Source: Agromyces luteolus (lineage in GTDB: Bacteria; Actinomycetota; Actinomycetes; Actinomycetales; Microbacteriaceae). Taken from it: DNA of 64,000 nt. Both the position numbers and the translations under genes were made by a program. Numbering within the stretch: position 1 is the first letter of the stretch; every line of letters starts with the position of its first letter. This document shows, piece after piece, positions 1,544 through 59,627 of this stretch. The notes under the pieces are model-generated. The model did no database searches. It had not been told where the DNA came from and worked only from the letters and a program-made list of their open reading frames with translations. The DNA lies in the NCBI RefSeq assembly GCF_009729855.1, contig NZ_WODA01000023.1:248001-312000 (forward strand), written 5' to 3'.

Positions 1544-1966
1544 TCACGCCCGATCGAACACGATCGCCGCGGGGAATCGCCGGAGCACGGCGCTGAACGG
1601 CGCGCGAGCGAGTCGTGCCGCCTCCGCGCCATCCACGATCCGCGGGCGCGCCAGCCCGACCTCGCGCCCCCGCCACCGCAGCGACGCGCCGTCCGCTGCC
1701 ACGACGTTGCGCGCCCAGTTCGTCGCCGCGCCCCACGGCAGCCCGATGACCACGATCGACGCGTCCGTCGTCGGCACGACGGCGATGGGCGTCTCGTAGG
1801 CGGTGCCGCTGCGGCGCCCGACGTGGCGGATGAGCGCCCAGACGGGCATCCAGCGGCGACCCGCGAGGGCGCGCGCGACGGGCGCCGTCGCGATGACGAG
1901 CCGACGCGGCGGGCCGCTCGCGGCGCGCGGCTCGGCGGACCGGGACGGAAGGGAGGTCTCGTTCAT
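1544..1966 (-). CDS. Nitroreductase/deazaflavin-dependent oxidoreductase family protein
   Basis: This 140-residue protein belongs to the Ddn-like split-barrel family that uses coenzyme F420 or a flavin. Signature motifs are HVGRRSGTAYETPI at 48-61 and NWARNVVA at 83-90. Related actinobacterial enzymes reduce nitro or quinone compounds with F420H2, but cofactor and substrate are not shown here. The ATG at 1966 lies exactly 6 nt after the -10 element of a GTCACA-N16-CGTCTC promoter, so the mRNA is probably leaderless. In-frame ATGs further upstream would be untranscribed. It is divergent from a SigJ-like sigma gene whose own promoter has identical hexamers, so it is a likely direct target of that sigma factor. 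Confidence 0.8.
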   Translation of the reverse strand: MNETSLPSRSAEPRAASGPPRRLVIATAPVARALAGRRWMPVWALIRHVGRRSGTAYETPIAVVPTTDASIVVIGLPWGAATNWARNVVAADGASLRWRGREVGLARPRIVDGAEAARLARAPFSAVLRRFPAAIVFDRA

Positions 1967-1972
1967 GCAGGT

Positions 1973-2000
1973 GAGACGGATGACTCGGCGCCCGTGTGAC
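1973..2000 (-). promoter_or_regulatory. SigJ-type promoter for the reductase at 1966
   Basis: On the minus strand, -35 GTCACA (2000-1995), a spacer of exactly 16 nt, and -10 CGTCTC (1978-1973). The start codon follows after 6 nt. The hexamers are identical to those of the divergent promoter at 2037-2064. Confidence 0.75.
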
Positions 2001-2036
2001 ATCCGCCCGGACATCAGCCGCGGCATCCGCCCTTGC

Positions 2037-2064
2037 GTCACACCGACCACGGGTGGATCGTCTC
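2037..2064 (+). promoter_or_regulatory. SigJ-type autoregulatory promoter of the sigma gene at 2072
   Basis: -35 GTCACA (2037-2042), 16-nt spacer, -10 CGTCTC (2059-2064). The ATG at 2072 follows after 7 nt, so the predicted transcript is leaderless. As I recall it, the SigJ consensus in mycobacteria is GTCACA-N16-CGTCCT, which this matches almost completely. Confidence 0.75.
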
Positions 2065-2071
2065 CTGTGTC

Positions 2072-2947
2072 ATGACCGAGTTCGCCGACCTCTGGACCGC
2101 GCACCGGCACGTCGTGCGCGACGTCGCGTACCGGGTGCTCGGGTCCGTCGCCGAGGCCGAGGACGTCACCCAGGAGACCTACCTGCGCCTGCTCGCCCGA
2201 GAGGGCGACCCCGACGCGGCGCCGTTCGACGACCCGCGCGCGTGGCTCGTGACGGTCGCGTCGCGGCTCGCGATCGATCGGCTGCGCGCGCACGAGCACT
2301 CGCGGCGCGCGTACGTCGGGCCGTGGCTGCCCGAGCCGATCGTCACCGACGAGCGCACGCTGCCCGAAGACCGGGTGACGCTCGACGACTCGGTGCGGAT
2401 GGCGCTGCTCGTCGTGCTCGAGCAGCTCACGCCCGCCGAGCGCACCGCCTTCCTGCTGCACGACGTGTTCGACCTCTCGTTCGACCGCATCGCCGAGGTG
2501 CTCGGCTCGAGTCCCGCCGCGGCACGGCAGTCGGCGTCACGCGCGCGGAGGCGGATCGCCGCGCACGGCGAGGCCCGCTTCGCCGTTGACCCCGCCGCCG
2601 CCCGTCGCCTCTCCGAGCGGTTCGCCGCCGCGGCATCCGACGGCGACCTCGACGGGCTGGTCGCGGTGCTGGCGACGGATGCCACGGGCTGGTTCGATTC
2701 CGGCGGCGCCTACCCCGGCGCACCGACCGAGCCGGTGCGCGGCGCCGAGCAAGTCGCGCGGCAGTTCCTCGCCGGGGTCGGCGGGCTCGGCCTCGACTTC
2801 CGGGTCGCGGAGGTCAACGGCGAACCCGGCGTCGTGGTGCGCCGGCGCGACCGCGTCGTGTCGGTGCTCGCGCTCGAGTTCGCGGACGGCCGGATCACGG
2901 CGATCCACGGCGTCGGCAACCCGGCGAAGCTCGGGCACGTGCGGTGA
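2072..2947 (+). CDS. sigJ: SigJ-like ECF RNA polymerase sigma factor with C-terminal SnoaL domain
   Basis: A 291-residue sigma factor of the ECF41/SigJ type. Region sigma-2 is at about 5-75 (VAYRVLGSVAEAEDVTQETYL), the family linker WLPEP lies near 84, and sigma-4 (LTPAERTAFLLHDVFDLSFDRIAEVL) is at about 115-165. A SnoaL-like domain from about 175 ends in GVGNPAKLGHVR. In this family there is no separate anti-sigma gene and the C-terminal domain controls activity. The start at 2072 is chosen because it is conserved in form (MTEFADLWTAHR) and lies at the predicted transcription start. Two more SigJ-like genes occur at 21966 and 58713. The divergent reductase is a probable target. Confidence 0.9.
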   Translation: MTEFADLWTAHRHVVRDVAYRVLGSVAEAEDVTQETYLRLLAREGDPDAAPFDDPRAWLVTVASRLAIDRLRAHEHSRRAYVGPWLPEPIVTDERTLPEDRVTLDDSVRMALLVVLEQLTPAERTAFLLHDVFDLSFDRIAEVLGSSPAAARQSASRARRRIAAHGEARFAVDPAAARRLSERFAAAASDGDLDGLVAVLATDATGWFDSGGAYPGAPTEPVRGAEQVARQFLAGVGGLGLDFRVAEVNGEPGVVVRRRDRVVSVLALEFADGRITAIHGVGNPAKLGHVR

Positions 2948-21965: not shown

Positions 21966-22865
21966 TCACCGCGCCAGCCGCGCCTCCGCGTCGAGCCGAG
22001 CGAGCTTGTCGGGGTTCGCGACCGAGTAGAGGTGCGTCACGAGGCCGTCGTCGATGGTCACGCTGATCACGCCGGCGAGCACCCCGTCGACCTCGACCCG
22101 CAGTGCGGGCGCGCCGTTGATCCAGATCACCGAGGCGACCGGGTGGAACCCCCACTTCGCGGTCGCGCCCATGAGGTACGACACGAGCTTGCGCGCGCCG
22201 CGGATCGGGTGACGGGCCGCACCCTTGACCTTGCCGCCGCCGTCGCCGATCGAGACGACGTCGGGCGCCAGGACATCCATGAGCCCCTGCACGTCACCCG
22301 TGTTGAAGGCGACCATGAGCCGCTCGACGACCCGCTCCTGCTCGGTCGGCTCGACCTGCATCCGCGGGCGCCTCGCCGCGACGTGCTCCTTCGCCCGGTG
22401 CGCGATCTGCCGCACCGCCGCCGGGGTCTTGCCCACGGCATCCGCGATCTCGTCGTACGGCAGGTCGAACACCTCGCGCAGGACGAACACCGCCCGCTCC
22501 GCTGGGCCCAGCGTCTCGAGCACCGTGAGCGTCGCGATCGAGAGCGACTCGGCGAGCTCGACGTCGTCGGCGATGTCGCGGCTCGTGAGCAGCGGCTCGG
22601 GCAGCCACTCCCCCACGTACTCCTCGCGCCGGCGCGACAGCGTGCGCAGGTGGTTGAGCGATTGCCGGGTCACGACGCGCACGAGGTAGGCGCGCGCATC
22701 GCGCACCTCGGCCCGGTCGACGTCGGACCATCGCAGCCACGACTCCTGCAGCACGTCCTCCGCGTCGGCGGCCGAGCCGAGCAGCTCGTAGGCGACGGTG
22801 AAGAGCAGGTTCCGGTGCTCGACGAACGGGTCGACGTCGGCGCCGGCTCCGGCGTGCTGGCTCAT
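21966..22865 (-). CDS. SigJ-like ECF sigma factor with SnoaL domain (second copy)
   Basis: A 299-residue sigma factor of the ECF41/SigJ type. Sigma-2 contains FTVAYELLGSAADAEDVLQESWLRW, the linker has the family WLPEPLL, sigma-4 contains LGPAERAVFVLREVFDLPYDEIADAV, and the SnoaL-like domain covers about 180-295, ending YSVANPDKLARLDAEARLAR. The start is taken as ATG 22865 because a TAGGGT box ends 7 nt before it; the in-frame GTG at 22874 would overlap that box. It lies 10 nt after the carboxymuconolactone-decarboxylase gene, whose promoter has GTCACA-N16-TGTCTG, so the pair is probably an autoregulated operon with a second internal promoter. Confidence 0.9.
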   Translation of the reverse strand: MSQHAGAGADVDPFVEHRNLLFTVAYELLGSAADAEDVLQESWLRWSDVDRAEVRDARAYLVRVVTRQSLNHLRTLSRRREEYVGEWLPEPLLTSRDIADDVELAESLSIATLTVLETLGPAERAVFVLREVFDLPYDEIADAVGKTPAAVRQIAHRAKEHVAARRPRMQVEPTEQERVVERLMVAFNTGDVQGLMDVLAPDVVSIGDGGGKVKGAARHPIRGARKLVSYLMGATAKWGFHPVASVIWINGAPALRVEVDGVLAGVISVTIDDGLVTHLYSVANPDKLARLDAEARLAR

Positions 22866-22872
22866 GCGCGCC

Positions 22873-22878
22873 ACCCTA
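22873..22878 (-). promoter_or_regulatory. Internal -10 box for leaderless sigma gene
   Basis: On the minus strand TAGGGT ends 7 nt before the ATG at 22865. It overlaps the stop codon of the CMD gene. Confidence 0.45.
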
Positions 22879-23517
22879 CGCCGCCCCGCCGACCGCCGAG
22901 CGGGTCGCGTCAGGCGTGCGGGTCGCGTCGCGCGAGCGGGTCGCGAGCGGCGGGAGGCCGCAGGCGTCCGCGAAGTGCTCAGAACGGATGCCGAGCGCGA
23001 TGTTCCCGCGCGCGGTCGCGTTCATGAGGCCGACCTTCGCGCTCAGCTCGACCATCGCGGCCGGCCCGAGCTCGGCGAGGAGGGCCGCCGACAGCTCGTC
23101 GGTCACCGCGACCGGCGTCGCGCACATCGCCTCGGCGTACTCCATCACGCGCCGCTCGAGCGGCGTGAAGACGGATGACTCGCGCCACTGCGGCACCTCG
23201 CGCGCCTTCTCCTCGTCGAGGCCGTGGTCGTGCGCGAGGAAGTAGTGGAAGTCGAGGCAGAAGCTGCACCCGATCGCGGCGGCGGCGGCCATCGCGGCGT
23301 ACGAGCCGAGGTTCGCGTCGAGCGCGCTCCACCGCTCGGCCTTCCGCCCGATGCCCATGAGGTCGAACAGCACCCGGCGGTTGTGCCACATGACGCCGAC
23401 GGAGTCGGGCACGCGGCCGATCATGCGGCGGGCGCCGAGCTTCGCGAGCGCGCCGATCGGGCCGGTCAGCTCGGCGGCGGGGATGCGGGTCGTCGTGGTT
23501 GCGCTGGTGGCGGTCAT
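22876..23517 (-). CDS. Carboxymuconolactone decarboxylase/AhpD-like protein, SigJ-linked
   Basis: A 213-residue all-helical CMD-family protein. The redox motif IGCSFCLDFHYF (about 82-93) has the CxxC-like pair with a downstream histidine typical of AhpD-like peroxidase partners. CMD genes paired with SigJ/ECF41 sigma genes are a known arrangement, and the neighbouring sigma gene begins 10 nt downstream. The promoter at 23557-23584 carries the SigJ-type hexamers, so the gene is probably induced by the sigma factor it precedes. The C-terminal tail (RDATRTPDATRS) is encoded by an 18-bp tandem repeat and looks dispensable. The start has a GGAGAG ribosome-binding site. Confidence 0.88.
   Translation of the reverse strand: MTATSATTTTRIPAAELTGPIGALAKLGARRMIGRVPDSVGVMWHNRRVLFDLMGIGRKAERWSALDANLGSYAAMAAAAAIGCSFCLDFHYFLAHDHGLDEEKAREVPQWRESSVFTPLERRVMEYAEAMCATPVAVTDELSAALLAELGPAAMVELSAKVGLMNATARGNIALGIRSEHFADACGLPPLATRSRDATRTPDATRSAVGGAA
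22900..22953. repeat. 18-bp tandem repeat, three units
   Basis: GCGGGTCGCG recurs at 22900, 22918 and 22936, exactly 18 bp apart, with partly conserved sequence between. It encodes the six-residue repetitive tail of the CMD protein without breaking the frame. Confidence 0.6.
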
Positions 23518-23556
23518 GGTGGTCTCTCCAACGTCTCGGAACGGGTCGATGACATG

Positions 23557-23584
23557 CAGACACCGCGCAGGCGAGGGCTGTGAC
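23557..23584 (-). promoter_or_regulatory. SigJ-type promoter of the CMD-sigma operon
   Basis: On the minus strand, GTCACA (23584-23579), 16-nt spacer, TGTCTG (23562-23557). It is preceded by GGAT, as at 58633. The predicted start near 23550 gives a leader of about 33 nt. Confidence 0.65.
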
Positions 23585-23689
23585 ATCCGCTGTGCGCCGC
23601 CGAACGGGGTGACACCGCGACCGACCCGCGCAAGGGCTGGCCCGGCCCTCAGCCCGGGCGTACGTTGGGGACAGAACGAGGAGGTTCGC

Positions 23690-58583: not shown

Positions 58584-58636
58584 CACGCGGCGAGTCATCC
58601 GTTCTCCTCACCGCCCGATCGGATCGGCCACCGGAT

Positions 58637-58712: not shown

Positions 58713-59627
58713 ATGGACGACGCCGACGGACTCGACGCCGACGGACTCGACGCCGACGACCTCGACGACGCGCTCGCCGTGTTCTCCGCCGTGCGCGGAC
58801 GCCTCTTCGGCATCGCGTACCGCATGCTCGGCAGCGCGACCGACGCCGAGGACATCGTGCAGGAGGCGTGGCTGCGCTGGCAGCGCACGGACCGCAGCGT
58901 GGTGGAGGATCCGCCCGCGTTCCTCGCGACCGCGACCACGCGGCTCGCGATCAACGCCCTGCAGTCGGCGCGCGTGCGCCGCGAGACCTACATCGGTCCG
59001 TGGCTGCCCGAGCCGGTCGACACCGGCGCCGACCCGACGCTCGGCGCCGAACGGGCCGAGGCGCTCGGGTTCGCGGTGCTCGTCATGCTCGAGCGGCTCA
59101 CAGCGACCGAGCGCGCCGCGTACGTGCTGCGCGAGGCGTTCGCCTACTCGTACGCCCAGATCTGCGGGATCATCCAGGTCTCCGAGGCCGCCGCCCGACA
59201 GCTCGTGAGCCGCGCGCGCAAGCACCTCGCCGGCGAGCGCCGCCGCGACGTGACGAGCGCCGAGCAGCGCCGACTGCTCACCGCGTTCGTCGGCGCCGCC
59301 CGCACCGGCGACCTCGATGCGCTCGAGCGGCTGTTCGCGGAGGACGTCGTGTCGTACTCCGACGGCGGCGGCGTGGTACGGGCGTCGAAGTTCCCCGTCC
59401 GCGGGCGCGTGACGGTCGCGAAGTTCGTGCGCGCGTTCCACGAGCGCTTCTGGGCGGGCGTCGAGACGATCGAGGCCGACCTGAACGGCGAACCCTCGGT
59501 GCTCCTCGCGAAGGACGGCACGACGTTCGCGGTGCTCACGGTCGTCGCCTCGGCCGGCGCGATCGACCAGGTGCTCTGGATGATGAACCCGCACAAGCTC
59601 GCCGCCGTGGCGTCCCGTGCGGCGTGA
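58713..59627 (+). CDS. SigJ-like ECF sigma factor with SnoaL domain (third copy)
   Basis: A 304-residue sigma factor of the same type. Sigma-2 has LFGIAYRMLGSATDAEDIVQEAWLRW, the linker WLPEPVDTG, sigma-4 LTATERAAYVLREAFAYSYAQICGII, and the SnoaL-like domain from about 190 ends WMMNPHKLAAVASRAA. The N-terminus carries a short DGLDADGLDADDLDD repeat encoded by a 15-bp tandem repeat at about 58726-58765. The ATG at 58713 has GAGAGGA upstream. It overlaps the downstream NTF2-like gene. The SigJ-type promoter implies autoregulation, or regulation by another of the three copies. Confidence 0.9.
   Translation: MDDADGLDADGLDADDLDDALAVFSAVRGRLFGIAYRMLGSATDAEDIVQEAWLRWQRTDRSVVEDPPAFLATATTRLAINALQSARVRRETYIGPWLPEPVDTGADPTLGAERAEALGFAVLVMLERLTATERAAYVLREAFAYSYAQICGIIQVSEAAARQLVSRARKHLAGERRRDVTSAEQRRLLTAFVGAARTGDLDALERLFAEDVVSYSDGGGVVRASKFPVRGRVTVAKFVRAFHERFWAGVETIEADLNGEPSVLLAKDGTTFAVLTVVASAGAIDQVLWMMNPHKLAAVASRAA

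Follow-up and report, generated by a model that had tools for sequence, protein, structure and literature searches.

A short intergenic region of Agromyces luteolus very probably harbours a two-promoter module of the ECF41 type, in which a sigma factor activates its own gene and a divergent reductase gene, both of them from leaderless mRNAs, whose translation would therefore have to do without a Shine-Dalgarno (SD) site. Control of itself and its neighbour through two divergent promoters is known for this group of sigma factors, because promoters have been reported on both sides of divergent ECF41 loci (PMC3426412). What seems to be new, within a known sigma-factor group, is the conserved, predicted leaderless layout together with its partner gene.

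The module would work as follows. A SnoaL-like domain fused to the sigma factor probably inhibits it until a signal brings release, by analogy with other ECF41 members, whose fused C-terminal domain is described as limiting their activity in the accessible text of PMC8999054. RNA polymerase carrying the released sigma factor would then bind both divergent promoters, one of which would amplify the sigma factor and the other would yield the reductase-family protein. The first nucleotide of either transcript is expected to coincide with the beginning of the start codon or to lie no more than about one nucleotide from it.

Two Divergent Promoters in One Intergenic Region

The window (that is, the whole stretch of DNA analysed, 64,000 bases) contains exactly two matches to GTCACA-N16-CGTCTC, one on each strand (Table 1), and the same pattern gave no match in 100 dinucleotide-preserving shuffles of the window. 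A preliminary description of the locus had reported the same hexamers with a 16-nt spacer on both strands and had considered two 12-base matches improbable by chance; the first statement is exact and the shuffles bear out the second. The start codons that it placed 6 and 7 nt past the -10 elements are also found there, with 6 nt (1967-1972) between the minus-strand element and the ATG at 1966, and 7 nt (2065-2071) between the plus-strand element and the ATG at 2072. Its wording that the promoters stand face to face has to be amended: they are divergent (back to back), because transcription runs outward, and it is the -35 boxes alone that face each other, 36 nt apart.

The consensus of ECF41 promoters is given as TGTCACA-N16-CGTC in the accessible text of Wecke et al. 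(2012; PMC3426412). Such a promoter, looked for before the ECF gene and/or its neighbour, was found here at both genes. On the reductase side a T precedes GTCACA, which yields the full TGTCACA, and on the sigma side a C does (CGTCACA), which amounts to one mismatch to the seven-base consensus. The GTCACA box is also identical to the -35 consensus cited for the mycobacterial sigma J in the available part of PMC4906023, so that the SigJ consensus given in the preliminary description holds for its -35 part.

Table 1. Features of the locus and of the paralogous genes (positions are those of the window unless a contig is given).
Feature	Position	Strand	Basis
Divergent target gene, 140-aa nitroreductase-family deazaflavin-type oxidoreductase (TIGR00026)	1544-1966	-	TIGR00026 match
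Predicted transcription start of the reductase gene (A of ATG)	1966	-	predicted; 8 nt after CGTC
ECF41-type promoter of the reductase gene	1973-2000	-	motif search; -35 GTCACA 1995-2000, -10 CGTC 1975-1978 (CGTCTC 1973-1978), spacer 16
ECF41-type promoter of the sigma gene	2037-2064	+	motif search; -35 GTCACA 2037-2042, -10 CGTC 2059-2062 (CGTCTC 2059-2064), spacer 16
Predicted transcription start of the sigma gene (A of ATG)	2072	+	predicted; 9 nt after CGTC
ECF41/SigJ-type sigma factor, 291 aa: sigma2, WLPEP linker, sigma4, SnoaL-like C-terminal domain	2072-2947	+	profile, motif and structure matches
Paralogous ECF41 sigma factor, 41% identical	21966-22874	-	behind a gene resembling carboxymuconolactone decarboxylases
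Promoter of the paralogous ECF41 operon, TGTCACA-N16-TGTC	23559-23585	-	motif search and open reading frames
ECF41-type sigma genes	2072-2947, 21966-22874, about 58785-59606, G000:C16:171635-172486		

The Sigma Factor and Its Partner

Judged by its sequence, the product of the 2072-2947 gene is a sigma factor of the ECF41/SigJ type. It scores 281.3 bits against the SigJ family NF007214, above the curated cut-off of 271, and the structure of Mycobacterium tuberculosis SigJ (5xe7) aligns to its residues 10-287 with an E-value of 1.6e-49, in agreement with the SigJ-like gene announced earlier. The sigma2 and sigma4 domains are recognised by Pfam (Sigma70_r2, PF04542, 1.4e-14; Sigma70_r4_2, PF08281, 5.9e-14), and SnoaL_2 matches residues 182-256 with 21.9 bits, below the Pfam gathering score of 27. 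Two motifs named for ECF41 sigma factors are also present. WLPEP (PMC3426412 and PMC7730460, in the parts accessible) is found in the linker between sigma2 and sigma4 as YVGPWLPEP, residues 81-89, and NPDKL (accessible part of PMC7730460) near the C-terminus as the variant NPAKL, residues 283-287; the N, P, K and L of this N-P-x-K-L motif are invariant in 15 of 15 aligned sigma factors. Sigma factors 80-95% identical to this one occur in Agromyces, one uncultured member among them, and in Microbacterium mangrovi. No anti-sigma gene was recognised by Pfam among the neighbour genes scanned.

The partner scores 55.5 bits against TIGR00026 (cut-off 46.35), and searches at 0.001 gave no match to Pfam or to a solved structure. 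The genome search returned a match to cofD, a gene of F420 synthesis, and did not find cofG or cofH, so that F420 dependence of the reductase is not to be assumed. The gene is the partner in 19 of 20 orthologous loci; in the remaining one (L014) its place is taken by an alpha/beta-hydrolase-fold protein (PF12697), with the promoter kept. In 18 of 60 same-genus genomes, all of them within the 19 that carry the sigma factor, orthologues of the reductase with 65% identity or more were found. More distant reductases (51-61% identity) account for nine further matches in eight genomes, two of which are carriers, and in G009 and G027 such reductases lie near other ECF41 genes.

A Fixed Distance from Promoter to Start Codon

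The layout was compared across 20 orthologous loci, namely those of the 19 genomes, out of 60 of the same genus, that carry the sigma factor (the genome under study included) and that of M. mangrovi (L037); these are close relatives, so that the counts are not independent events. On the sigma side, GTCACA-N16-CGTC is exact in all 20. The reductase-side promoter is likewise present in every locus, exact in 12 and with one mismatch in eight (GTCACG in four, CGTT in four). The sigma gene starts 8 nt past CGTC in 15 loci and 9 nt past it in five, and the divergent gene 8 nt past its -10 box in 18 and 9 nt in two, with ATG in 19 cases and GTG in one; L005, L009 and L191 have an additional in-frame ATG 2 nt past CGTC on the reductase side. 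At a random position of the window, an ATG that lies 8 or 9 nt away and opens at least 120 aa has a frequency of 0.007. The alignment of the intergenic region across relatives, which the preliminary description had proposed as a check, therefore finds hexamers, spacer and start distance kept on both sides in 20 of 20 loci.

In 18 of these loci 13-82 nt separate the -35 boxes; the interval is 2011 nt in L191 and 2307 nt in L188. In the last two (703-2715 in L191 and 632-2940 in L188), the promoters are separated by about 2 kb of extra DNA, and each keeps its distance to its start codon. That the start distance is fixed in the same intergenic regions in which the inter-promoter distance varies is the best evidence that the constraint falls on the former and not on the whole region. 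This is as expected if transcription begins at the start codon, and the comparison thereby supports a conserved leaderless layout in the orthologues. The earlier proposal of leaderless mRNAs thus gains support from the start codons, which are the predicted start points and lie 8-9 nt past the -10 box at both promoters of all 20 loci.

The variation between the elements also bears on whether they are promoters at all, since two 12-base matches inverted around a short centre might instead serve a repressor or an activator as an inverted-repeat operator. Such an operator is extremely improbable, for the copies lie at unconstrained distances from each other and each of them retains its own 16-nt spacer and start distance; it was rejected on account of this variation, from 13 to 2307 nt.

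A different objection accepts the ECF41-type promoters and supposes that the main mRNAs begin at other sites, be it only a short way to either side, and are hence not leaderless in the strict sense. It draws on the two ECF41 starts mapped in other bacteria, which according to the accessible text of PMC3426412 produce 22/23-nt leaders with a ribosome-binding site, and on the SD-led starts seen at most ECF41 promoters outside the orthologous set. At the Agromyces locus, in contrast, the 8-9 nt between -10 box and start codon leave no space for an SD site, and they are held constant on both sides of 20 loci in spite of the shifting inter-promoter distance. Moreover, a consensus scan of 1900-2140, which covered sigma-70-type promoters and no other types, found none of them, and sigma region 2 starts as early as residue 7 of the open reading frame read from ATG 2072. 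Considering these points, displaced starts were judged quite improbable, and the leaderless reading was retained.

The two promoters are not alike in every position. The base before GTCACA is a T in 14 of 16 loci at the reductase promoter and a C in 17 of 18 at the sigma promoter. On the sigma side (2033-2062 in the window), TTGC lies within 6 nt 5' of GTCACA in 20 of 20 loci, and the spacer ends in GAT before CGTC in 19 of 20 and in GGAT in 18 of 20, while the reductase side (16 loci) conserves neither TTGC nor GGAT. These differences may reflect another promoter strength on the sigma side or an additional basal input. Read in the latter sense, the extra motifs would mark a housekeeping promoter that overlaps the ECF41 element, with TTGC 5' of GTCACA and GGAT at CGTC, and provides basal expression, and their one-sided conservation favours it. 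However, the consensus scan detected no sigma-70-type site, and GGAT could be part of the ECF41 element itself, because ECF41 promoters in general have a conserved 3' spacer end (CTGnCT, 41 sites). An overlap of this kind is consequently regarded as unlikely.

Distribution of the Promoter Pattern and the Paralogous Sigma Factors

The link between the promoters and this particular sigma factor was approached through their distribution. With an orthologue threshold of E <=1e-90, the sigma factor is found in 19 of the 60 same-genus genomes, and GTCACA-N16-CGTC-N8/9-ATG precedes its gene in 19 of 19 carriers; stray matches to the pattern occur in 2 of 41 non-carriers (G028 and G034, one each), and G253, a carrier, matches the pattern at two additional places. 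This co-occurrence, together with the ECF41 literature (PMC3426412, as far as accessible), supports the earlier suggestion that the sigma factor drives itself and its neighbour, by way of its presumed recognition of both promoters.

The entire genome (3.9 Mb) contains GTCACA-N15..17-CGTC six times. Two of the four sites outside the locus are inside genes with Pfam domains (a carbamoyl-phosphate synthase and an FAD-linked lactone oxidase), and the other two are in open frames with no Pfam match, although mechanically derived frames are an uninformative test of genic status in G+C-rich DNA and here span both promoters as well. The exact pattern with an ATG 8-9 nt past CGTC is confined, genome-wide, to the two promoters described here. 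When one mismatch was allowed and RTG was required at 8 nt, which excludes the sigma side of the locus (9 nt), seven matches were obtained (two in the control), one of them the reductase side and six elsewhere. A larger regulon was set aside as having little support, given the uniqueness of the exact pattern with its ATG.

The genome encodes four ECF41-type sigma factors within about 136 kb, three of them inside the window, and another of them could therefore act on the locus. The promoters would then be served, wholly or partly, by a paralogue whose target the locus would be. The shared TGTCACA -35 box is compatible with this, as is the fact that, in one sequence comparison, 20 of 23 same-genus non-carriers hold another ECF41-like gene. 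The paralogous operon at 21966-23585 indeed resembles the 2072 locus in its ECF41-type protein, its TGTCACA -35 box and its 16-nt spacer, but it differs in the remainder: its -10 box is TGTC, its decarboxylase-like and sigma genes are codirectional, and its likely ATG stands 41 nt past TGTC behind GGAGAG, a nearer ATG being present 3 nt past TGTC. Instead of the CGTC of the 2072 locus, the paralogous -10 boxes read TGTC (at 23585) and, with one mismatch, GGTC (at 58636); no upstream promoter element was found for the fourth gene (G000:C16:171635-172486). TGTC also serves as the -10 box in 12 of 14 further loci (L015-L027 and L029), the other two having no listed site. In contrast, CGTC with an ATG at 8-9 nt tracks the orthologue, being present in all carriers and in hardly any non-carrier. 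Control by a paralogue is thus held to be improbable, and the sigma factor encoded at the locus remains the preferred activator. It is possible that the differing -10 boxes insulate the paralogues from one another.

Comparison with Other ECF41 Loci

According to the accessible text of PMC3426412, 55 of 373 ECF41 loci are divergent, with a promoter on the ECF side in 36 and on the COE side in 41. The divergent ECF41/COE loci described there share with the Agromyces locus the sigma group, TGTCACA-N16-CGTC and a promoter on each divergent gene. They differ in the leaders of their mapped examples, already mentioned, and the family of the Agromyces partner, TIGR00026, is absent from the list of oxidoreductase Pfam families in the accessible part of that paper. 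No published description of a leaderless ECF41 layout was found in the openly accessible literature, nor any match there for a SigJ sigma factor together with a nitroreductase. A 2008 paper by Homerova is reportedly devoted to the sigI promoter.

In the sequences sampled, the leaderless layout is a minority variant, because most ECF41 promoters of the wider samples have SD-like leaders. Among 68 other ECF41 loci (L042-L109), 41 exact promoter sites have an open start downstream, which is preceded by an SD-like string in 32 cases by a lenient test, for which any one of several 4-nt strings suffices; 1 of the 41 has a start at 7-9 nt. In a further sample (L161-L187), made of the best-scoring match of each of 27 Actinomycetes genomes and hence non-random, with some places repeated from earlier samples, an SD-led start follows 9 of 9 exact sites, one of which also has a start at 7-9 nt. 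The notion that ECF41 promoters of Actinomycetes are leaderless as a rule was discarded on the basis of these nine sites.

A class-wide histogram of ATG distances in 197 genomes (144 reports from 129 sites) has peaks at 8 nt (20) and at 2 nt (18), against roughly 3.7 at each remaining distance. The second of these peaks (18 of 144) is only partly explained by sites that have a second start at 8 nt and by others with a later, SD-led start. The layout recurs in three divergent ECF41 loci of other Actinomycetes (L127, L138 and L139), which resemble the Agromyces locus in having two back-to-back ECF41 promoters, each followed by a start codon at 7-8 nt. They differ in that they belong to another ECF41 branch, and an MMPL-family protein takes the partner's place in L127 and L139, the two loci tested for it.

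A more general proposal can be put forward tentatively, and we hold it to be somewhat less probable than its converse: that the locus represents a recurrent actinobacterial ECF41 variant in which selection fixes a promoter-to-start distance of 8-9 nt on both arms, so that a small regulon is wholly leaderless and paralogous circuits are separated both by promoter and by mode of translation. If this were true, translation of the leaderless regulon could be separated from that of SD-led mRNAs, with the paralogous ECF41 circuit of the same cell using another -10 box and an SD-led start. The locus would then offer a small, testable model of how paralogous sigma factors avoid cross-talk and of why some regulons are leaderless, and a fixed start distance combined with a free inter-promoter distance would be a signature of leaderless transcription readable from genomes. 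The reductase and its uncertain cofactor also raise a concrete question, namely which signal is sensed by the fused SnoaL-like domain.

Two minor observations may be added. The 3' end of the spacer reads CTGnCT before CGTC in the 41 exact ECF41 promoters of L042-L109 (C 0.88, T 0.68, G 0.78, C 0.68, T 0.80), a feature absent from the consensus as worded in the accessible text of Wecke et al. (2012; PMC3426412). Elsewhere in the window, on the minus strand, a gene for a DUF6036 nucleotidyltransferase-like protein lies beside one for an HTH protein similar to HipB/Y4mF, below the family cut-off (270-857 and 854-1432); their ends overlap by 4 bases, and from its sequence the pair resembles a toxin-antitoxin pair.
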